From IMG/VR virus record IMGVR_UViG_3300025128_000328, positions 1-24,155 of that record: a DNA stretch of 24,155 nucleotides; one strand, 5' to 3'. This document shows positions 5,405-23,989 of the stretch, in pieces. The notes under the pieces were generated by a model that saw nothing but the letters and a program-made list of their open reading frames with translations, ran no database searches and was not told where the DNA came from. A program made the position numbers and the translations under genes. This stretch comes from a virus. The first letter of the stretch is position 1. The number at the start of each line of letters is the position of its first letter.

Positions 5405-5486
5405 AGATGTCTTATTGTACATTATTGTTCTAGCGGCTTTTTATTGGACTATACTTTTTCCTCCAAAATGGTTATTTATACAATAA
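5394..5486 (+). CDS. tiny hydrophobic peptide (30 aa)
   Basis: ATG at 5394 opens a 30-codon frame ending in TAA at 5484-5486. It overlaps the previous gene by 11 bases, and its stop overlaps the next start by one base (TAATG). The product begins MEIEDVLLYIIVLAAFYW and is almost wholly one membrane helix with a Lys/Trp C-terminal end. The precise coupling to the downstream start, and its bridging of the gap between two genes, argue that it is translated. No strong ribosome-binding site is seen. Function unknown; single-helix peptides near lysis genes can affect membrane timing, but that is speculation. Confidence 0.45.
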   Translation: MEIEDVLLYIIVLAAFYWTILFPPKWLFIQ

Positions 5487-6037
5487 TGGGAAAAAGATCA
5501 GAGTTTGGCAGGATAGATAAGGATTTTTATCCAACGCCTGCAAAAGCGTTAGAACCTTTGTTACCTCACTTAGAGGGTTATATTTCTTATGCTGAACCAA
5601 TGGCGGGCAACGGTTCACTTATAAATGCTATGGATCAGTTTTCTGATTTGAAATGCAAGTGGCGTTCTGATATTTATCCGCAAAGAGAAGATATTAAACA
5701 AGCTAACGTATTTGACTTAACCTTAAAAGAAATAGGTGTAGATACAGATTTAATTATTACAAACCCGCCTTGGTCAAGGGAGGTACTACACGATACGATT
5801 ATGCACTTATCTGCAATTAGACCTAGTTGGTTATTGTTCTATGCAGATTGGATGCACACCATACAAGCCGTACAATATTTACCTTATTGTCAAAAAATAC
5901 AAAGTATTGGTAGAGTAAAGTGGTTTCCAGAAACACCCCATACAGGTAAGGACAATGTGTGTTGGTATTTATTTGATCAAAGAAAAAAATCTGATACAGT
6001 AGAGTTTTACCCTAGAGGATGGTTGTTAACGACATGA
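5486..6037 (+). CDS. compact class I SAM-dependent DNA methyltransferase-like protein
   Basis: A 183-residue protein from the ATG at 5486. A longer frame from 5444 is open, but the 5486 start couples to the previous stop (TAATG) and begins at the conserved FYPTP segment. Motifs: FYPTP at 14-18, SAM-binding motif I AEPMAGNGSLI at 36-46, an acidic ribose-binding candidate D62 (SDIYP), and catalytic TNPPW at 92-96. NPPW/NPPY is the signature of amino-methyltransferases acting on adenine N6 or cytosine N4. No separate target-recognition domain or restriction partner is visible, so it is an orphan enzyme. It probably modifies phage DNA, perhaps against host restriction. A protein substrate cannot be excluded, since N5-glutamine methyltransferases share NPPY. 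Confidence 0.8.
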   Translation: MGKRSEFGRIDKDFYPTPAKALEPLLPHLEGYISYAEPMAGNGSLINAMDQFSDLKCKWRSDIYPQREDIKQANVFDLTLKEIGVDTDLIITNPPWSREVLHDTIMHLSAIRPSWLLFYADWMHTIQAVQYLPYCQKIQSIGRVKWFPETPHTGKDNVCWYLFDQRKKSDTVEFYPRGWLLTT

Positions 6038-7260: not shown

Positions 7261-7980
7261 ATGGCTAATATATACACACCAAAAGACGAAGAGGAAATCT
7301 TTGCACCATTTAGTCCTATTATAGGATATAAAAAAATGTCACCTAGCTTTGTAGATAGGCTCAACGACGCTATGGACGAGAATATGGAGGATTGGTCGCC
7401 TAATCTCGTAGGTAAAGTTTCACAAGAGTTAAAATTTACTAAGGAGCTAGATCAGCTTTGGGCAAAAGAAATGGGTACTTTTTTAATGAAGTACCAAAGC
7501 CACGCTGAGTTATATACTTCTTTGGGTAAAAGAAACATACAACCTGACATTTTTAATTATAGCATAGACGTAACAAGTGGTTGGTTTGTTCGTCAGTTTG
7601 AAAATGAATATAACCCTATCCATGTTCACTTAGGCTCTTACTTATCCTGTGTAGGCTATTTAAAATTACCAGACGGGATAGATGAGGAGTGGGAAGAAGA
7701 TTACAAAGATCACCATCCGTGTAATGGACACATACAATTTGTTTATGGACACGCAGCTAATCATACGGGATCTAATTGTTTAATGAAACCACAGGTCGGA
7801 GACTTTTATGTTTTTCCGGCTCATTTGCATCATTGTGTTTATCCGTTTAAAACAAAGGGTGAAAGACGTAGTTTTAGTGTGAATTGCACCATATCGGCTA
7901 CATATAAAGATCCGTCACAAGAAGCTAAAACCTTTTCAGATCAAGAGAAAGAAATGCTTGTTGAAAAAGAAAAAGTTTAA
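7261..7980 (+). CDS. 2OG-Fe(II) oxygenase family protein
   Basis: A 239-residue protein with the C-terminal double-stranded beta-helix motifs of iron/2-oxoglutarate dioxygenases. NPIHVHLGSYLSCVGYLKLP (118-136) carries the first iron ligands (H121 and H123, an HxH form of the usual HxD/E). VGDFYVFPAHLHHCVYPF (179-196) carries the distal ligand, probably H191. R202 or R203 in GERRSFSVN would bind the 2OG carboxylate. This pattern fits the 2OG-FeII_Oxy_5 (TIGR02466) type, common in marine and cyanobacterial viruses. Substrate unknown; related phage genes are suspected of protein, nucleic-acid or metabolite hydroxylation. An AAAGGG ribosome-binding site precedes the ATG. It is placed between lysis and head genes. 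Confidence 0.85.
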   Translation: MANIYTPKDEEEIFAPFSPIIGYKKMSPSFVDRLNDAMDENMEDWSPNLVGKVSQELKFTKELDQLWAKEMGTFLMKYQSHAELYTSLGKRNIQPDIFNYSIDVTSGWFVRQFENEYNPIHVHLGSYLSCVGYLKLPDGIDEEWEEDYKDHHPCNGHIQFVYGHAANHTGSNCLMKPQVGDFYVFPAHLHHCVYPFKTKGERRSFSVNCTISATYKDPSQEAKTFSDQEKEMLVEKEKV

Positions 7981-15560: not shown

Positions 15561-16244
15561 ATGGCTTATTTACAAAGTAATATTCCGCATTTTAAATGTT
15601 GGGTGCGTAGGGAATATACGCACAACCATGAAAAATACCATGGTGAATTTTTACACGCTATGGCTGTGGCCGTCACAACAATGCCGTGCAGATCTTTAAG
15701 CTTTCAAGTAATATTTACGGGCTTGGAAGAAGGCTCTGAAGAAAATGTGCATGGTGGAGCTATGTGGGCAAGAATGCCTATAACAGCCTTGGTAGGTGAT
15801 TTTGACTTTGAAGGTTGGCCTGAACCCATGCCTACCTATCTAGCTCAACCTTGGGACTGTTCCTCACATCATCATGCAGTATACCAAATAAACAGGGCGC
15901 AACCTTGTCCTTGGATTGCTAAAATTGGAAGTGATTTTTTTCCTGCTAAATATTTATTTACAGTAGACTATACAGAGAGTGAAATAGCGGATGATCCTGC
16001 ACAACACAAACAAAGCCATGTTTTACAGTTGTTGGATGCGGATGTTTATACAGGTAATGTAGTTGCGTTACCCAATAATAGAGTTAGGGTTACACATCCT
16101 GCTTGGTGGGTTACAGGAGAAGGTCCTCCCGATTTTAAACCATCTCATCATATACACTATTCAAAATCAGATTTAGACTATACCCTAGACGTAAATAAAA
16201 TTTTTGATAATATGTATGCAGAGCCAGAAGAAGAGGAAAAATAA
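15561..16244 (+). CDS. conserved marine phage protein of unknown function
   Basis: A 227-residue protein starting MAYLQSNIPHFKCWVRREYT. The sequence has HGEFLHAMAVAVTTMPCRSL (27-46), MWARMPITALVG, QPWDCSSHHHAVYQI and AKYLFTVDYTES. The same order of motifs, with VLQPNNRVR-like and DFK-like ends, occurs in many marine and other short-tailed phages in my memory, with no assigned role. It is His- and Trp-rich and overall acidic at the C-terminus (PEEEEK), unlike the basic genes before it. It sits directly before the first head-tail adaptor gene and couples to it (TAATG), so a virion or neck-assembly role is possible. Confidence 0.8.
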   Translation: MAYLQSNIPHFKCWVRREYTHNHEKYHGEFLHAMAVAVTTMPCRSLSFQVIFTGLEEGSEENVHGGAMWARMPITALVGDFDFEGWPEPMPTYLAQPWDCSSHHHAVYQINRAQPCPWIAKIGSDFFPAKYLFTVDYTESEIADDPAQHKQSHVLQLLDADVYTGNVVALPNNRVRVTHPAWWVTGEGPPDFKPSHHIHYSKSDLDYTLDVNKIFDNMYAEPEEEEK

Positions 16245-16912
16245 TGGCGATATCTAACAGTACAGATTTTGAACTTGATGTAGTTGAGTATATAGAAGAG
16301 GCATTTGAGCGTTGTGGACTTGAGGTTCGCACGGGTTATGATCTTAAAACGGCAAGACGCTCTCTTAATCTTATGTTAGCAGAATGGGCTAACAGGGGTT
16401 TAAATCAATGGACAATTAAACAAAGAACCCTTTCTTTAGTCAAATCAGATGGGGAATATGATTTAGGTACAGATATTATAGATGTATTATCTGTTGTTGT
16501 AAGAAGGGATAATACAGATTTTTCTGTAGAAAGAATAAGTAGGGACACGTATTTGTCCATACCTAACAAAACTACAGAGGGTAGAACAAACCAATTTTTT
16601 TTGGATAGGCAAGTAACTCCCAATCTAAAAATATGGCCTGTACCAGAAAATAGCACAGATGTTATATATTATGATGCTTTGACTAGGGTTGATGATGCAG
16701 ACACTCAGGTAAACACCCTAGACGTACCATTTAGATTTTATCCCTGCCTTGCTGCAGGTTTGGCTTATTACATTGCTATGAAAAAAGCACCTGAAAGAAT
16801 ACAATTACTTAAAGCAGCTTACGAAGAGGAATTTCAAAGAGCTATGACTGAGGACAGAGACAGAGCATCATTTAACGTTGTTCCTCAGTTTGAATATTTT
16901 AGGACTACCTGA
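16244..16912 (+). CDS. head-tail adaptor (P22 gp4-like)
   Basis: A 222-residue protein that would form the ring under the portal. ARRSLNLMLAEWANRGLNQW (47-66) is the hallmark helix of the P22 tail accessory factor gp4 / head-tail adaptor family. It is followed by TIKQRTLSL and YDLGTDIIDVLSV, the strand pair with conserved Gly-Thr-Asp. The C-terminal helix pair (PCLAAGLAYYIAMKKAPERI, about 165-184) matches the family's second helical part. This family is typical of short-tailed phages and some siphophages. A second adaptor-type protein is encoded at 17778. Together with the absence of a tape-measure gene in the window, this suggests a podovirus-like neck. Confidence 0.82.
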   Translation: MAISNSTDFELDVVEYIEEAFERCGLEVRTGYDLKTARRSLNLMLAEWANRGLNQWTIKQRTLSLVKSDGEYDLGTDIIDVLSVVVRRDNTDFSVERISRDTYLSIPNKTTEGRTNQFFLDRQVTPNLKIWPVPENSTDVIYYDALTRVDDADTQVNTLDVPFRFYPCLAAGLAYYIAMKKAPERIQLLKAAYEEEFQRAMTEDRDRASFNVVPQFEYFRTT

Positions 16913-17781
16913 TGTCAAAATACGCTAGTGGTAAAAGAGCTTACGGAATATCAGATCGCTCAGGATTTAGATATAGATATAAAGATTTAAGAAAAGAATG
17001 GAATGGTGCGGTTGTAGGACCAGATGAGTTTGAAACAAAGCATCCACAACTATTTCCTAGAAGAAAGGTTTTTGATGCTCAAGCTTTACGGGACGCAAGA
17101 CCAGAAACTAATTTATCAGAAGAAAGATCTATTCAACATGGGTTTAACCCAGTTGGTTTTCGTTTTATTGAGGGTATTACGCCACCAAACCGACTTGCCC
17201 CAGAAGCAGGGGTTGGTAACGTAACAATAACAGTAACTGATTTTATTGGTAATACAGCTAATGTTAGTGGTGTTCAGGGAGCGTCAGCCGTTGGCACGGT
17301 TTCAATAACTGTTCCAAATGAAAATGAATCTGTTAATGTGTCTGGTTTTGTAGGCACAACCTCTGTGGGCTCAATTTCTACTTTACCTGTTGATGTCATA
17401 GGAGTAGCGGGTACTTCGGCAGTGGGTAGTGTTACAATTTCAGAATCTGTGACTACGTATACTGTAACTGTGGCGAGCTACCTTGGTGCTAATAAATATT
17501 ATATAGATGGTGTAAGACAAGCCACAGTAACCCTTAGCGAAGGTAGTATTTACCGATTTGATCAATCCGATAGTTCAAATGGAGGTCATCCATTAAGGTT
17601 TTCAACCACAAGTGACGGAACACACGGAGGCGGTTCAGAATATACAACAGGAGTTACCACTAATGGCACAGCGGGTAGTTCGGGAGCTTATACACAAATA
17701 ACCGTTGCTAGTGGGGCTCCGACGTTGTATTACTATTGTACAAACCATAGTGGCATGGGAGGTCAAGCAAACACACCATGA
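16912..17781 (+). CDS. structural protein: neck-type head, beta repeats, cupredoxin-like domain
   Basis: A 289-residue, three-part protein. Residues 1-95 hold a conserved phage segment (SGFRYRYKDLRKEWNGAVVG, 18-37, and DEFETKHPQLFPRR, 38-51). Residues 100-178 hold three beta repeats of the form (V/F)xG(T/A)(S/T)(A/S)VG (starting 120, 145, 164), like those in the gene at 19359. Residues 183-289 look like a cupredoxin: HPLRFSTTSDG has H226 and LYYYCTNHSGMGG has C276, H279 and M282, the His-Cys-His-Met set of a type 1 copper site. The Cys-His and His-Met spacings (two residues each) are shorter than in plastocyanin. Whether it binds copper is unproved. It couples to its neighbours by overlapping starts and stops. 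Confidence 0.75.
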   Translation: MSKYASGKRAYGISDRSGFRYRYKDLRKEWNGAVVGPDEFETKHPQLFPRRKVFDAQALRDARPETNLSEERSIQHGFNPVGFRFIEGITPPNRLAPEAGVGNVTITVTDFIGNTANVSGVQGASAVGTVSITVPNENESVNVSGFVGTTSVGSISTLPVDVIGVAGTSAVGSVTISESVTTYTVTVASYLGANKYYIDGVRQATVTLSEGSIYRFDQSDSSNGGHPLRFSTTSDGTHGGGSEYTTGVTTNGTAGSSGAYTQITVASGAPTLYYYCTNHSGMGGQANTP

Positions 17782-18629
17782 GCTTTACATTAACGACACT
17801 AAGAACATCTTTAAAAGAATATACAGAAAACACAGAAACCAGTTTTGTTAACAACCTAGATTTGTTTATTCGTTTAGCAGAAGAAAGAATATTAAAAAAC
17901 GTTCAGCTAAATGTTTTTGAAAAAAACGTCTCTGGTACCATGACAACTAGTAATCAGTATTTGGCTTGTCCCAGTGATTTTTTAGCACCAAATGCTTTGA
18001 CCATTACCAATAGTAGTCAATACACCTACTTACAATTTAAAGAAAAAGAATTTATTCAAACCTTTACACCCAATGCTTCTACAACAGGTGTACCAAGGTT
18101 TTATGCCCAGTTTGACGTAGATAATTTTGTAATCGCTCCAACGCCCGACAGTGGTTACACGGTTAATCTAAGTTATTTTTATAGACCCGCTAGTCTTACG
18201 GATAGCACTATTACCTTTACGGTTAGTAGTAGTTCTTCTTTTACAGTGGGAGAAACCATAACAGGAGGCACTTCTGGATCTACTACAACTATTACAGCCT
18301 TACCTTCAAGCACGACAATGACGGTTATTGTTCCTAAAGATAGTTTTACGGCTACAGAAACCATAACAGGAGGCACTTCTGGGGCTTCTACAACTTTATC
18401 TTCATTTACCTCAGACACTACAGAATCTTGGTTAAGCACCAACGCAGAACTTGCTTTACTTTACGGATCCCTAATAGAGTGTTATATTTATATGAAAGGT
18501 GATCCTGATATTATGAATGTTTATAATACAAGGTTTGCTGAAGCAATAGGTAGATTAAAGAATTTAGGTGAAGCGAAAGAAGTAGTCGATGAATACACAA
18601 TGGGTCCAATTAGAAAGGCAAGGACATAA
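17778..18629 (+). CDS. phage adaptor / tail-tube connector protein with inserted repeat domain
   Basis: A 283-residue protein. The N-terminal EYTENTETSFVNNLDLFIRL (14-33) with AEERILKNVQL, then YLACPSDFLAPNAL (61-74), PRFYAQFD and PTPDSGYTVNLSYFYRPASL (121-140), and the C-terminal TESWLSTNAELALLYGSLIE (215-234) match a marine phage adaptor family of head-tail joining proteins. Residues about 143-214 interrupt that core with a Ser/Thr/Gly-rich beta segment containing two copies of ETITGGTSG, 35 residues apart. Start overlaps the previous stop (ATGA). The insert is flanked by family sequence on both sides, so it is likely surface-exposed. The adaptor call is by memory of the family. Confidence 0.75.
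   Translation: MSFTLTTLRTSLKEYTENTETSFVNNLDLFIRLAEERILKNVQLNVFEKNVSGTMTTSNQYLACPSDFLAPNALTITNSSQYTYLQFKEKEFIQTFTPNASTTGVPRFYAQFDVDNFVIAPTPDSGYTVNLSYFYRPASLTDSTITFTVSSSSSFTVGETITGGTSGSTTTITALPSSTTMTVIVPKDSFTATETITGGTSGASTTLSSFTSDTTESWLSTNAELALLYGSLIECYIYMKGDPDIMNVYNTRFAEAIGRLKNLGEAKEVVDEYTMGPIRKART
18251..18382 (+). repeat. 27-bp in-frame direct repeat in the adaptor insertion
   Basis: AGAAACCATAACAGGAGGCA and the next seven bases occur identically at 18251-18277 and 18356-18382. Separation is 105 bases (35 codons), in frame. Identity at third positions points to a recent internal duplication. Confidence 0.88.
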
Positions 18630-18922: not shown

Positions 18923-19359
18923 TGGCTTTTACGGGAAATTTTTTATGTACCTCTTTTAAAACAGAACTTTTGAAAGGTGTTCATAATTTTACAGCAACAA
19001 CAGGAAATACTTTTAATGTGGCCTTATATGATAATAGTGCCTCATTTACAGCAGCTACCACAGCTTATACCTCTAGTAACGAAATAAGTGGTACTAATTA
19101 CTCAGCTAAGGGTCAGGCCTTAAATCCTGTAACACCTACGGCAAGTGGAACAACCGCACTGGTAGACTTTGCTGATGAGACATTTAGCAATGTTACTATC
19201 AGTAGTGTAAGAGGTGCTTTAATATTTAATGAAACTGCAACAGGAGATCCCTCCGTTGCTGTATTAGATTTTGGTGCAGACAAAGCAGCCAGTAGTGGGG
19301 ACTTTACGATTGTGTTCCCTACGGCTGATGCAAGTAATGCGATAATAAGGATTGCTTAA
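18922..19359 (+). CDS. virion structural protein candidate
   Basis: A 145-residue, Thr/Ser/Ala-rich beta protein. FLCTSFKTELLKGVHNF (8-24) opens it, followed by NTFNVALYDNSASFTAATTA and the SRxALIFNET / VAVLDFGADKAASSGDFTIV (113-132) pattern. I recognise this type as a small fibre or minor tail protein common in marine and cyanobacterial phages, usually unnamed. Low charge and beta character suit a virion surface role. It is the first of three overlapping tail-module genes leading to the fibre. Confidence 0.75.
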   Translation: MAFTGNFLCTSFKTELLKGVHNFTATTGNTFNVALYDNSASFTAATTAYTSSNEISGTNYSAKGQALNPVTPTASGTTALVDFADETFSNVTISSVRGALIFNETATGDPSVAVLDFGADKAASSGDFTIVFPTADASNAIIRIA

Positions 19360-20039
19360 TGGCGACAGTTGTTGCGTTTAAAGGATGGAATAGCTCTCTA
19401 ACTGCTTGGAATACAGGCACTTGGAATGGTGAGGGTGTTTTTCCTAGTGCAACAGCCTCCGTTGGCTCTGTAGCTATTACAGGCGAAGGTGAGATTGGTG
19501 TTTTTGGGGTTGCAGGTACAAGTGCTATTGGCACAGTTTCCATCACCGCTAATTCAAACCTTTCTGTAACGGGTTTAGCAGGCACAGGTGCTGTAGGATC
19601 TACCTCTGTAGTTGGGGCAGCCAATATATCACCTACAGGTGTAGCAGGTACAACTGCTTTAGGTAATGTTTTTGAAACGCAAACAGGTGTAGCAGGAACG
19701 TCTGCCGTTGGCTCAGTAACCATAACTGGTGTAGCTAACGTTTCTGTAACTGGTATATCAAGTACATCTGCAATTGGTAATACTTTTGAAACTTTAAATG
19801 GTGTAGAGGCTACAGGTGCGGTTGGTACGGTTACTATTACAGGTTTTGCCAATATTTCGATTACTGGTGTGGTTGGCACTATGGCTATTGGTAGAACAAC
19901 AGAAACAATTTTACCAACTTGGGGTGAGATTATACCAGATCAAGATGCTAGTTATAGCACTTTTACACCAAGTCAAACACCGAGTTACAGTACAATAACC
20001 CCAAGTCAAGATCCGTCTTGGCTTGATAAAGCAGCATGA
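19359..20039 (+). CDS. beta-repeat structural protein (VAGTSAVG repeats)
   Basis: A 226-residue protein. The Trp-rich head (MATVVAFKGWNSSLTAWNTG, 1-20) is a known start in marine phage virion proteins. Seven copies of a GVAGTSAVG-type unit begin near residues 50, 72, 94, 110, 132, 148 and 170, spaced 22, 22, 16, 22, 16 and 22. Each is followed by a strand such as SVTITGVANVSVTG. The C-terminal 30 residues contain a second repeat (ASYSTFTPSQTPSYSTITPS). Such regular beta units suggest an elongated fibre or collar element. The same unit appears in the protein at 16912. No enzyme motif is visible. Confidence 0.78.
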   Translation: MATVVAFKGWNSSLTAWNTGTWNGEGVFPSATASVGSVAITGEGEIGVFGVAGTSAIGTVSITANSNLSVTGLAGTGAVGSTSVVGAANISPTGVAGTTALGNVFETQTGVAGTSAVGSVTITGVANVSVTGISSTSAIGNTFETLNGVEATGAVGTVTITGFANISITGVVGTMAIGRTTETILPTWGEIIPDQDASYSTFTPSQTPSYSTITPSQDPSWLDKAA

Positions 20040-20047
20040 GGTAAGCA

Positions 20048-23000
20048 ATGTCAAGTGTATATACCAATGATTTAAGATTAGAAGAGATTGGTTCTGGTGA
20101 ACAATCGGGAACGTGGGGTGATACCACGAATACCAATCTTGAGCTAATAGCAGAGGCTTTTAGTTTTGGAACGGAAGCAATTACAACAAATGCAGATACG
20201 CATACCACCACCATAGCGGACGGTGCAACAGATCCCGGTCGTTCTATCTATTTAAAATATACAGGTACATTAGATTCTGCTTGTACTATTACACTAGGAC
20301 CAAACACCATAAGTAAAGTCTGGTTTATTGAAAATGCTACCTCTGGATCACAAAATATCATTATAAGTCAAGGTTCTGGAGCCAATGTCACAATAGGTAA
20401 TGGCGCAGTTAAAATGGTTTATAGTGATGGTGCAGGATCAGGAGCTGCTGTTGTTGATGCTTTAGTTGATTTGGATCTTACAGGAACTACGACAGTCGCA
20501 GCTTTGACTGCATCAGGTGCAATCACTGCTTCTGGAGTTATTACGGGTACTACCCTTGAGGCTACAGCAGACACTTCATCAGGTGATAATGCAGCTATTG
20601 GATATACAAGCACAGAGGGTTTAATCCTTACAGGTCAAGGTAGTACAGGTGATGTTACGATTAAAAATGATGCTGATGCTACTGTTATACAAATACCCAC
20701 AGGAACAACAGGCGTAGATTTTAAGGGTAATATATTTACATCTACTTCTGGCACTTCAAACTTTGTGGCAGGTGTCAACGCAGGTAACTCTATTACTTCT
20801 GGTGGTAATTACAATGTTTTTATAGGTGATGAAGCAGGTACAGCTATTACTGATGGAGCAAGAAATGTAGCCATTGGATACAATGCATTAAGCACAGATG
20901 ACTCTGGTGATAGAACTATAGCCATTGGTTACGAAGCTTTAAAAGACATGAATGTAAATGGTATTTCTTATAATCTTGCAATAGGATATAACACAGGAGC
21001 TTCAGTTACATCAGGCACTAAAAATAATTTTATAGGTAGTCTATCAGGTGATTCTATAACTGAGGGATCTCAAAATGTGGCTCTTGGCACAGAAACATTA
21101 TCTAGTGACACTTTAGGCTCAAGATCTGTAGCAATAGGTCAAGGAGCTTTGTTTGCTCAAAACTTCACTACAGCTACAAATGCTTACAATACAGCAGTCG
21201 GTTATGAAGCAGGTGTATCAAATACAACAGGCACTTACAATACTCTTTTAGGGTCTGAAGCAGGAAAAAGTATAACAACAGGCATTGAAAATACTCTAGT
21301 TGGTTCTATAGCAGGTGATGCGTTGAGTGATGCAGATTTTAATGTAGCAATAGGTGTTTCTGCATTAACAACAGACACAAAAGGTAGTAAATCGGTAGCT
21401 GTAGGGTGTGGAGCATTAAATGCACAAAACTTTACAACTTCTACAGATACTTTCAATGTGGCTATTGGTTTTCATGCAGGTAATGATGTCACAACAGGCA
21501 CACGAAACACTCTTATAGGTGGACTAGCAGGAGACGCTTTAACTACTGGCTATAACAACACTGCTTTAGGATATAGTGCTTTAAGTGCAGATGATGTAGG
21601 GCAAGGAAGTACAGCTATTGGATATGCTACTTTAATGAATCAAAACTTTGCTACTGCAACAGATTCTGATAATACGGCTGTCGGTATTTTAGCAGGTAAT
21701 CAAGTTACAACAGGTATACAGAACACCCTCATTGGTTCAAAAGCAGGTGATGCCCTTACGGATGCAGATTATAACGTAGCTGTAGGCTATCAAGCTTTAA
21801 CTGCAGATACTCTAGGTTCTAGAAGCGTTGCTATAGGGAGAAATGCACTTTTATCACAAAACTTTTCTACAGCTACAGAAAGCCAAAACGTAGCTGTAGG
21901 TTTTGCTGCAGGTGAGCAAGTTACAACTGGCACATTTAATACTTTTGTGGGAGGTGAATCAGGAAAATCTGTTACAACAGGAATAAAAAACGTATTATTG
22001 AGTAGTAGGGCAGGTGATGCTTTAACTGAAGGTGGTAATAATATAGCAATAGGAGATAGTGCTTTAAGTTCAGATACTTTAGGTAGTAAATCAGTTGCGA
22101 TAGGGGATAGTGCATTATACAATCAAAACTTCACTACAGCTACTGATTCTCTTAATACTGCTGTAGGTCATGAAGCAGGAAATCTTGTTACAACAGCCGT
22201 TCAGAACACTCTTGTTGGAGGTCTCGCAGGAGATGCCCTTACAACAGGTGGGGAAAATGTTGCTATAGGTGTTTTAGCTCTATCTACAGAAGATACAGGT
22301 AGAAAAAATGTTGCTATTGGAACGCAAGCATTAATGGTTCAAAATAGTGATGCAGATAATTATAATACAGCAGTAGGTTATTTAGCAGCAAAATCTGTTA
22401 CAACAGGTATACAGAACACTCTTATAGGCGCACTTGCAGGAGATGCACTTACAGACGCTGATTATAATGTAGCTGTGGGAGTAACAGCTTTAGGTGGGGA
22501 TACGAAGGGCAGTAAATCAACAGCAATAGGATATAGTGCGCTTGTTAATCAAAACTTCACTACTGCTACAGATACTTTTAATGTTGCTGTAGGTTATGAA
22601 GCAGGTGGTGCAATCACAACAGGTTTGCGAAATAATTTGGTGGGAGCATTTGTAGGAGATTCTTTAACAGATGCAGATGATAATACTGTTGTTGGTGACA
22701 GTGCATTAAATTCAGATACCAGAGGTTCTAGAAGTACAGCTGTGGGTAGAGGAACATTAGCTTCTCAAAATTTTACAACTGCAACAGATACTTACAACGT
22801 AGCAGTTGGTTACTATGCAGGGGTATCAATTACAACAGGTTTTTATAATACAATAGTAGGTGGACTAGCAGGAGACGCACTTACAGTTGGTAACGAAAAC
22901 ACAGCAATTGGGCAAAACTCTTTGAGTTCAGATACTAAGGGTGATAGAAATGTTGCTGTTGGATATGGAACTTTATTTGCTCAAAATTTTACTACTTCTA

Positions 23001-23989
23001 CAGACAGCTACAATACAGCTTTAGGTCATAGCGCAGGTTTAGCTATTACAACAGGATTTTATAATACTCTTGTAGGTGGTGCTTGTGGAGATCAATTAAC
23101 GGATGCCGACTACAATGTGGCAATGGGTGTAAGTGCATTAGGTGCAGATACTTTAGGCAGTAGATCAACTGCCATAGGTTATCAGGCTTTAGGTTCTCAA
23201 AATTTTACTACTGCCACGGATGCTTACAACGTTGCTATTGGATATTATTCAGGTCAAAGTATTACAACAGGTCACTCAAACGTTTTTGTCGGAGGTCTTT
23301 GTGGAGATGGTACAGATGATGGTCAACAAAATACAGCAGTTGGTCATAATTCATTAACTGCAAATGCAGGAAATGCTAATGTAGCAATGGGAATTTCTGT
23401 GCTTGAAGTTTGCACAGGTAGTGATAACACTTGTGTAGGTGCAGCTGCAGGTGCTGAAGTTACAAGTGGTATTAATAATTTGTTTTTAGGTCACAATGCA
23501 GGAAGGTCTTCTTCACCTTCAGGACAGATAGCAACAGGTAGTAATATTATTTGTTTAGGAGATGACGATATTGGCAACTTGTTTTGTGCTGATACAAGTA
23601 TTTCTAGTTCAGACTCTAGGGATAAGGCTGATATTACAGATTTCACCATTGGTTTAAATTGGATTAAAGATTTACGACCTGTAACTTACAGATGGGATAA
23701 GAGGTCATGGTACGGAACAGACGAAGAACCTTATGGCACACCTGACGGAAGTAAAAAGAAATCAAAAGTAAATATAGGATTTTTAGCACAAGAAGCACTT
23801 GAAGTAGAAAAAGCAAATGGCTTTGGAGATAGTGCAGACAATATGTTGGTTTGTAACCTTACAGAGGATGGTCAAAGATATGGAATGAAATATGAAAGAC
23901 TTGTTCCTATTCTTGTAAATGCAGTCAAAGAACTATCAACAAAAGTAACAACTTTAGAAGCCGAAGTAACTAAATTAAAAGGAGGATAA
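20048..23989 (+). CDS. tail fibre with YadA-like repeats and S74 self-cleaving chaperone
   Basis: A 1313-residue host-contact fibre, probably trimeric. The N-terminus (YTNDLRLEEIGSGEQSGTWG, 5-24) is a virion-attachment segment shared by marine phage fibres. Residues about 245-1165 are built of N(V/T)A(I/V)G-type turns, the unit of YadA/trimeric autotransporter heads, in modules of about 72 residues marked by ten copies of QN(F/S), some with an extra 18-residue unit. The last 126 residues or so are a peptidase S74 intramolecular chaperone: SDSRDK at 1188-1193 gives catalytic S1188 and K1193 (S-D-x-R-x-K), then a closing coiled coil (KELSTKVTTLEAEVTKLKGG). Cleavage before S1188 would release the chaperone after trimer folding. 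Receptor unknown. Confidence 0.9.
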   Translation: MSSVYTNDLRLEEIGSGEQSGTWGDTTNTNLELIAEAFSFGTEAITTNADTHTTTIADGATDPGRSIYLKYTGTLDSACTITLGPNTISKVWFIENATSGSQNIIISQGSGANVTIGNGAVKMVYSDGAGSGAAVVDALVDLDLTGTTTVAALTASGAITASGVITGTTLEATADTSSGDNAAIGYTSTEGLILTGQGSTGDVTIKNDADATVIQIPTGTTGVDFKGNIFTSTSGTSNFVAGVNAGNSITSGGNYNVFIGDEAGTAITDGARNVAIGYNALSTDDSGDRTIAIGYEALKDMNVNGISYNLAIGYNTGASVTSGTKNNFIGSLSGDSITEGSQNVALGTETLSSDTLGSRSVAIGQGALFAQNFTTATNAYNTAVGYEAGVSNTTGTYNTLLGSEAGKSITTGIENTLVGSIAGDALSDADFNVAIGVSALTTDTKGSKSVAVGCGALNAQNFTTSTDTFNVAIGFHAGNDVTTGTRNTLIGGLAGDALTTGYNNTALGYSALSADDVGQGSTAIGYATLMNQNFATATDSDNTAVGILAGNQVTTGIQNTLIGSKAGDALTDADYNVAVGYQALTADTLGSRSVAIGRNALLSQNFSTATESQNVAVGFAAGEQVTTGTFNTFVGGESGKSVTTGIKNVLLSSRAGDALTEGGNNIAIGDSALSSDTLGSKSVAIGDSALYNQNFTTATDSLNTAVGHEAGNLVTTAVQNTLVGGLAGDALTTGGENVAIGVLALSTEDTGRKNVAIGTQALMVQNSDADNYNTAVGYLAAKSVTTGIQNTLIGALAGDALTDADYNVAVGVTALGGDTKGSKSTAIGYSALVNQNFTTATDTFNVAVGYEAGGAITTGLRNNLVGAFVGDSLTDADDNTVVGDSALNSDTRGSRSTAVGRGTLASQNFTTATDTYNVAVGYYAGVSITTGFYNTIVGGLAGDALTVGNENTAIGQNSLSSDTKGDRNVAVGYGTLFAQNFTTSTDSYNTALGHSAGLAITTGFYNTLVGGACGDQLTDADYNVAMGVSALGADTLGSRSTAIGYQALGSQNFTTATDAYNVAIGYYSGQSITTGHSNVFVGGLCGDGTDDGQQNTAVGHNSLTANAGNANVAMGISVLEVCTGSDNTCVGAAAGAEVTSGINNLFLGHNAGRSSSPSGQIATGSNIICLGDDDIGNLFCADTSISSSDSRDKADITDFTIGLNWIKDLRPVTYRWDKRSWYGTDEEPYGTPDGSKKKSKVNIGFLAQEALEVEKANGFGDSADNMLVCNLTEDGQRYGMKYERLVPILVNAVKELSTKVTTLEAEVTKLKGG
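20795..23500 (+). repeat. long array of fibre modules
   Basis: DNA encoding the YadA-like modules of the fibre. Short motifs such as CAAAA(C/T)TT(C/T)ACTAC (QNFTT) and GGAGA(T/C)GC(A/T)(C/T)T (GDAL) recur roughly every 216-270 bases. The modules are diverged at third positions, so the array is older than the adaptor repeat. Confidence 0.85.

Follow-up and report, generated by a model that had tools for sequence, protein, structure and literature searches.

A candidate mobile cupredoxin module with a predicted type 1 copper site in virion proteins of marine phages

Introduction

Does a phage structural protein carry a type 1 copper site? This question is raised by a 289-aa open reading frame (ORF) in a viral DNA sequence of 24,155 nt (IMG/VR virus record IMGVR_UViG_3300025128_000328, positions 1 to 24,155), which was analysed as a whole and is referred to here as the window. 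The original prediction saw the ligand set of type 1 copper proteins in the C-terminal part of this ORF and offered two readings, a copper site or a dead cupredoxin used as a beta-sandwich adhesin. Structural iron is established in the tail fibres of T4 (gp37), which contain HxH motifs, and HxH iron-binding motifs are also present in the tail fibres of Alteromonas phage R22Y (PMC11705849). The literature searched, a scope outside which most subscription papers fell, contained nothing on cupredoxins in phage virions, cyanophages or tail fibres.

Results

Carrier ORF and gene neighbourhood

The ORF and its neighbours comprise the following features.

16244..16912, + strand: SU10-type adaptor protein, upstream neighbour (PF24175, E 1.5e-16)
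16912..17781, + strand: ORF with cupredoxin-like domain, probable neck-region virion protein, 289 aa (ORF list; synteny in nearly all close relatives)
16912..17109, + strand: conserved N-terminal region, residues 1-66 (phrog_28581; tblastn)
17203..17436, + strand: residues 98-175, Ig-like linker repeats similar to those of ORF 19359-20039
17461..17778, + strand: cupredoxin-like domain of about 106 residues, 184-289 (profile, model and structure matches)
17587..17589, + strand: His226, putative copper ligand 1 (paired with the plastocyanin His by hhalign)
17737..17757, + strand: ligand loop Cys276-Thr-Asn-His279-Ser-Gly-Met282 (C-x2-H-x2-M; sequence)
17778..18629, + strand: second SU10-type adaptor protein, downstream neighbour (PF24175, E 9.5e-21)
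20048..23989, + strand: tail spike or large virion structural protein, 1313 aa, same operon (phrog_4636, E 6e-137)

The structural cluster of the window contains terminase, portal and protease/capsid genes, the two adaptors around the carrier ORF, and the spike; the start codon of the second adaptor overlaps the 3' end of the carrier ORF. By its position within this cluster, the carrier ORF product is predicted to be a virion protein. Residues 1-66 are the part common to proteins of the Pelagibacter and Roseobacter phages HTVC027P, HTVC023P, CRP-901 and CRP-902 (tblastn). The terminase has its best matches (62-63%) in Pelagibacter phage HTVC027P and the unassigned phage 023Pt_psg01, which makes a Pelagibacter-like host plausible.

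Two other parts of the window deserve mention. Among the neck genes, 15561-16244 matches phrog_3704, labelled 'ferredoxin' (E 2e-27); this label looks wrong, because the four cysteines are spread out without an Fe-S cluster motif. A 2OG-Fe(II) oxygenase gene (7261-7980) and a short DNA methyltransferase-like gene (5444-6037) are located between the portal and capsid genes.

Fold and relation to cupredoxins

An AlphaFold model was built from a diverse alignment of 131 family members, the rows of which had been chosen for intact sites, and reached a pLDDT of 97.8 and a pTM of 0.90. When this model was compared with the PDB (Foldseek), nearly all of the best 50 matches were cupredoxin-fold copper proteins, led by CuNIR 2dv6 (E 8.6e-4, probability 1.00, TM 0.57) and including rusticyanin (E 2.3e-3), pseudoazurin, AcoP and multicopper oxidases. 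Thus, the model predicts the Greek-key beta-sandwich of the cupredoxin superfamily, as the original prediction had expected, and the TM-scores of about 0.55-0.60 mark the domain as a divergent cupredoxin. The closest predicted viral structure is a virion protein of S-TIM5 (TM 0.98). In BFVD, relatives of Pithovirus and Marseillevirus have predicted 'beta-sandwich proteins' that also match the model (E 6e-6 to 5e-5).

Sequence profiles point to the same superfamily. The family profile retrieved CuNIR (E 0.0024), pseudoazurin (0.007) and a run of plastocyanins from the PDB by hmmsearch, with E-values of 0.0024-0.03 for the cupredoxins as a whole, and its hhalign alignment to marine plastocyanins (E 6e-6, probability 85%) placed His, Cys and His in register. 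Members scanned singly matched PF00127 (15 members), amicyanin TIGR02657 (6), plastocyanin TIGR02656 (6) and rusticyanin TIGR03095 (3), the best single PF00127 match (relative L149) lying just at the curated cut-off of 21.2 bits. The window sequence alone matched no cupredoxin model of Pfam or NCBIfam, PF00127 included, and the Prochlorococcus-type profile alone did not reach cupredoxins at significance. The individual E-values are modest, and the case for a cupredoxin lies in the agreement between methods.

Some searches were discarded. PDB searches with a single sequence or a narrow profile returned antibody noise, and a first AlphaFold run with 32 close relatives (pLDDT 67.6, weak Ig-like matches) was replaced by the diverse-alignment model. 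As a separate observation, 18 alignment members weakly match PF25489, an At5g54830-like domain with a plant-protein name, in one case (L185:3172-3516) over the whole length. These sequence matches hint that the family may extend to eukaryotes as a further branch, and PF25489 may be linked to the plastocyanin-like domain of insect Knickkopf. The literature searches gave no papers on this Knickkopf domain or on the amicyanin loop.

The predicted metal site

His226, Cys276, His279 and Met282 are present in the C-terminal domain of the ORF exactly as predicted from the sequence, in plastocyanin order and with Cys, His and Met in the last loop, the arrangement of a type 1 copper site. The domain had been assigned to residues 183-289; its start had been placed at 17461, one codon late, as residues 183-289 correspond to 17458-17778 plus the stop codon. 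Cys276 is the sole Cys of the protein and Met282 its sole Met apart from the initiator. In the model, the first His lies just before strand 51-54, Cys ends strand 95-99, and the second His and Met precede the last strand (107-110), so the ligands are predicted to occupy the positions where cupredoxin topology places them.

Among 500 intact copies, 483 show the C-x2-H-x2-M spacing and 497 have a single Cys, and the distance from the first His to Cys varies from 41 to 95 residues. Retention in hundreds of relatives, constant loop spacing, a single Cys and a variable His-Cys distance together take the four-residue set far beyond chance. Plastocyanin and pseudoazurin have a C-x2-H-x4-M loop, which is not the loop of this family. 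The loop had been called unusually short; short it is, but it has precedents, since C-x2-H-x2-M also occurs in amicyanin and in the solved structures 9cck (CTLHPWM) and 6hbe (CSIHPYM), both copper nitrite reductases. It therefore belongs to a known type of short loop.

Family size and ligand conservation

By tblastn the domain was detected in 74 phage records, and IMG/VR contains at least 600 candidate domain loci. Another 45 loci lie in contigs of cellular genomes (SAR11, Prochlorococcus, Actinomarina, Bacteroidota and others), some of them being phage sequence within single-cell or metagenome assemblies. An iterated HMM search over the fetched loci yielded 534 domains (511 full length), of which 327 remained at 90% redundancy: 308 with HCHM, 5 with HCHQ and 14 others.

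The original prediction had asked whether the four ligands co-vary in relatives. This is what we observed: exactly one ligand was lost in 0/327 non-redundant domains, Met to Gln aside, and Cys and the second His were both present in 314, with Cys only in 2, His only in 0 and neither in 11, in counts that ignore phylogeny and took all rows, including those from one locus-fetching scan that required the first His and from scan patterns some of which included Cys. Coupling between Cys and the second His ranked 2nd among 435 pairs of conserved columns and that between the first His and Met 7th; most of the remaining top-ranked pairs form a separate DQSD-x2-N...G network. In the 131-row set, no columns other than those of His, Cys and His are invariant, which is not independent evidence because the set was chosen for intact sites. 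Taken together, these alignments indicate that the ligands of the putative type 1 site are conserved, and lost, as a unit.

Copies without a site keep 17-24 of 26 other conserved residues (one keeps 13), compared with a mean of 22 in intact copies. Since these residues are kept about equally in most site-less copies, the site was lost there and the domain was not, and in some contexts the fold is of use without metal. In one close relative of the window domain (L017:1915-2238), Asp stands in place of His1 and Leu in place of Met, with Cys and His2 kept. A natural axial Met-to-Gln change (C-x2-H-x2-Q) occurs in L288, L256, L314, L320 and L322, which have larger insertions before Cys; Gln is the natural axial ligand in stellacyanin.

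Carriers and mobility

The adaptor-carrier-adaptor order is nearly invariant in the 80 closest relatives. The domain is found on a different ORF further downstream in L038, L063, L067, L069, L074, L075, L078 and L080, and the second adaptor also has a copy in L042, L046, L050 and L057. When 80 contigs were picked by the adaptor gene alone, the domain was on the target in 9 and on a separate gene just downstream in 14. Accordingly, it was not found in most close relatives, and 23/80 is a lower bound because many contigs are short.

In the 14 relatives with the downstream gene, an in-frame stop followed closely by the cupredoxin had raised stop-codon readthrough as a candidate, which was rejected: the second ORF is a separate gene, since it starts from an ATG of its own and resembles T4 gp9/10 at the N-terminus (seen in both of the two that were scanned). 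Mutual exclusion of carriers was also considered, as no contig of the adaptor-selected sample had two; this is compatible with chance.

Other carriers are baseplate and fibre proteins. PF07880 (T4 gp9/gp10 baseplate wedge) is found at the N-terminus of several of them (S-SM1 gp9, L513, L560). In cyanomyovirus S-SM1 (L508:24390-29777), gp9 (T4-GC 398), the baseplate wedge/tail-fibre connector, carries at its C-terminus a cupredoxin in which the four ligands are complete (...LYYQCTIHAAMQG...), and the adjoining baseplate wedge protein has another one (...YYHCAHHRYMSG; HMM) together with a site-less copy and a YHYH domain. In Pelagibacter phage Baldr, S-TIM5 (AEZ65678.1) and Syn1, the domain is located on annotated tail-fibre or virion structural proteins. 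Judged from these sequences, the domain is an unannotated mobile module on neck, baseplate wedge and tail-fibre proteins of marine phages. The neck or tail placement of the window protein is thereby supported, by synteny as well as by the baseplate and tail-fibre homologues.

In bacteria, a lipoprotein-like, Thr-rich-stalked protein of Candidatus Actinomarina (L115:2899-6163, also L116) ends in a cupredoxin, and its gene is located between those of cytochrome b561 and an FAD/NAD reductase, a setting that suggests a cellular redox system. In Prochlorococcus the domain is on a DUF4214 protein; the bacterial carriers look extracellular.

Discussion

Our computational analysis established a protein family, its fold, a ligand geometry given by topology, joint loss of ligands and changes of carrier. 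We favour, with good though not full confidence, a cupredoxin that is displayed on the virion, has its type 1 copper site intact, probably carries metal and acts as an accessory surface module. Residues 184-289 would fold as a cupredoxin with a complete site (His226, Cys276, His279 and axial Met282), placed at the C-terminus of a neck-region protein beyond the Ig-like linker repeats. Display on the particle surface is very likely, and marine phages appear to attach the module to varied exposed virion proteins: the adaptor-linked neck protein, gp9/10-like wedge proteins and tail fibres. Copper is likely to occupy the site, and may enter it once the particles have been released into seawater. 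For an accessory module that switches carriers among proteins of the neck, baseplate and fibres, binding to a host or to particles is a better fit than structural housekeeping. The domain would most likely attach to the host or host-derived material, with a metal that would stabilise or tune the binding surface rather than carry electrons over a chain; for such a role in attachment or stabilisation the chances are about even, the carrier proteins being what suggests attachment.

Other readings have to be weighed against this one. An Ig-like beta-sandwich with a chance match of the four residues is highly implausible: the first model did weakly resemble Ig-like folds, but the confident diverse-alignment model matches mostly cupredoxins, and sequence profiles reach the same proteins independently. 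It is also quite unlikely that the four residues are kept for packing in a dead cupredoxin that is purely structural or an adhesin. Some paralogues without a site (YCYY, HSGE, EGTL, HNTM and others) keep the other conserved residues, and the domain is one among many interchangeable virion modules. Against this stand the block-wise co-variation of His, Cys and His in the unselected set, their being the sole invariant columns of the set pre-selected for the site, an axial change to the very residue that stellacyanin uses, and a lone Cys without a disulphide partner, which would be difficult to account for on a particle outside the cell unless metal is bound. Hence, of the two readings offered originally, the predicted copper site is well supported and the dead adhesin unlikely for the window copy, while some relatives do look dead.

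The identity of the metal is a further point. Free copper is scarce in the cytoplasm, the site of phage assembly, and azurin made in E. coli can take up Zn. A structural Zn(II) or Cu(I) in vivo would have its precedent in the iron of T4 gp37 tail fibres (PMC11705849). We consider such a non-redox ion unlikely, as Cys-His-His-Met with a conserved axial Met is a copper set and Met is unusual as a Zn ligand. The complete type 1 ligand set might instead indicate redox-active blue copper through which, as infection proceeds, electrons are exchanged with proteins of the host surface or periplasm; redox proteins that use copper are needed by marine hosts, and the Actinomarina relatives between cytochrome b561 and FAD/NAD reductase genes have a plausible redox setting. 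However, the phage carriers are structural proteins and the surroundings of the phage copies showed no recognisable partner domain or redox gene, which leaves this reading improbable.

Returning to the displayed, copper-binding surface module, all four copper-holding residues are kept in hundreds of related marine phages, so many virions may carry bound copper. Should copper be bound, abundant ocean phages would have virions that are metalloparticles, their site being one suited to redox copper; the literature searched reports no such particles. This would bear on phage attachment and ocean trace-metal chemistry. It is tempting to speculate, rather doubtful as this is, that in several marine phage lineages the type 1 sites on necks, baseplates and tail fibres are loaded with copper and take part in infection, through host recognition, delivery of copper or exchange of electrons. 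Such particles would be a copper counterpart to the Trojan-horse role that has been proposed for iron in phage tails, and would act as a previously unrecognised particulate copper ligand in seawater. As to annotation, an unnamed cupredoxin family is present in hundreds of proteins labelled 'hypothetical' or 'tail fiber', and is found in Prochlorococcus, Actinomarina and Bacteroidota genomes as well.

Among known systems, the plastocyanin/azurin family (PF00127, TIGR02656) shares the fold, the His-Cys-His-Met order, the Y-x-C-x2-H context and profile matches with the phage domain, whereas the latter has a His-Met loop two residues shorter, an FDQSD-x2-N loop before the first His, no visible signal peptide and a predicted place on the virion. 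Amicyanin (TIGR02657) and CuNIR cupredoxin domains have the same C-x2-H-x2-M loop length, with CuNIR 2dv6 as top structural match; however, they are periplasmic redox proteins with known partners, and identity to 2dv6 is 14%. Rusticyanin and AcoP match structurally (probability 0.97-1.00), with three members matching TIGR03095, but have longer chains and another biological setting. T4 gp9/gp10 (PF07880) resembles the N-terminus of several carriers; in contrast to cyanophage gp9 with its C-terminal cupredoxin, the coliphage T4 gp9 and gp10 chains gave no match to the cupredoxin profile. In summary, we regard this divergent cupredoxin family and its setting as new, and metal on phage tails is already known for iron (PMC11705849). 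The HxH iron motifs of tail fibres likewise let virion tail proteins bind metal ions, there as octahedral iron between paired histidines, here as a putative Cys-containing cupredoxin copper site.
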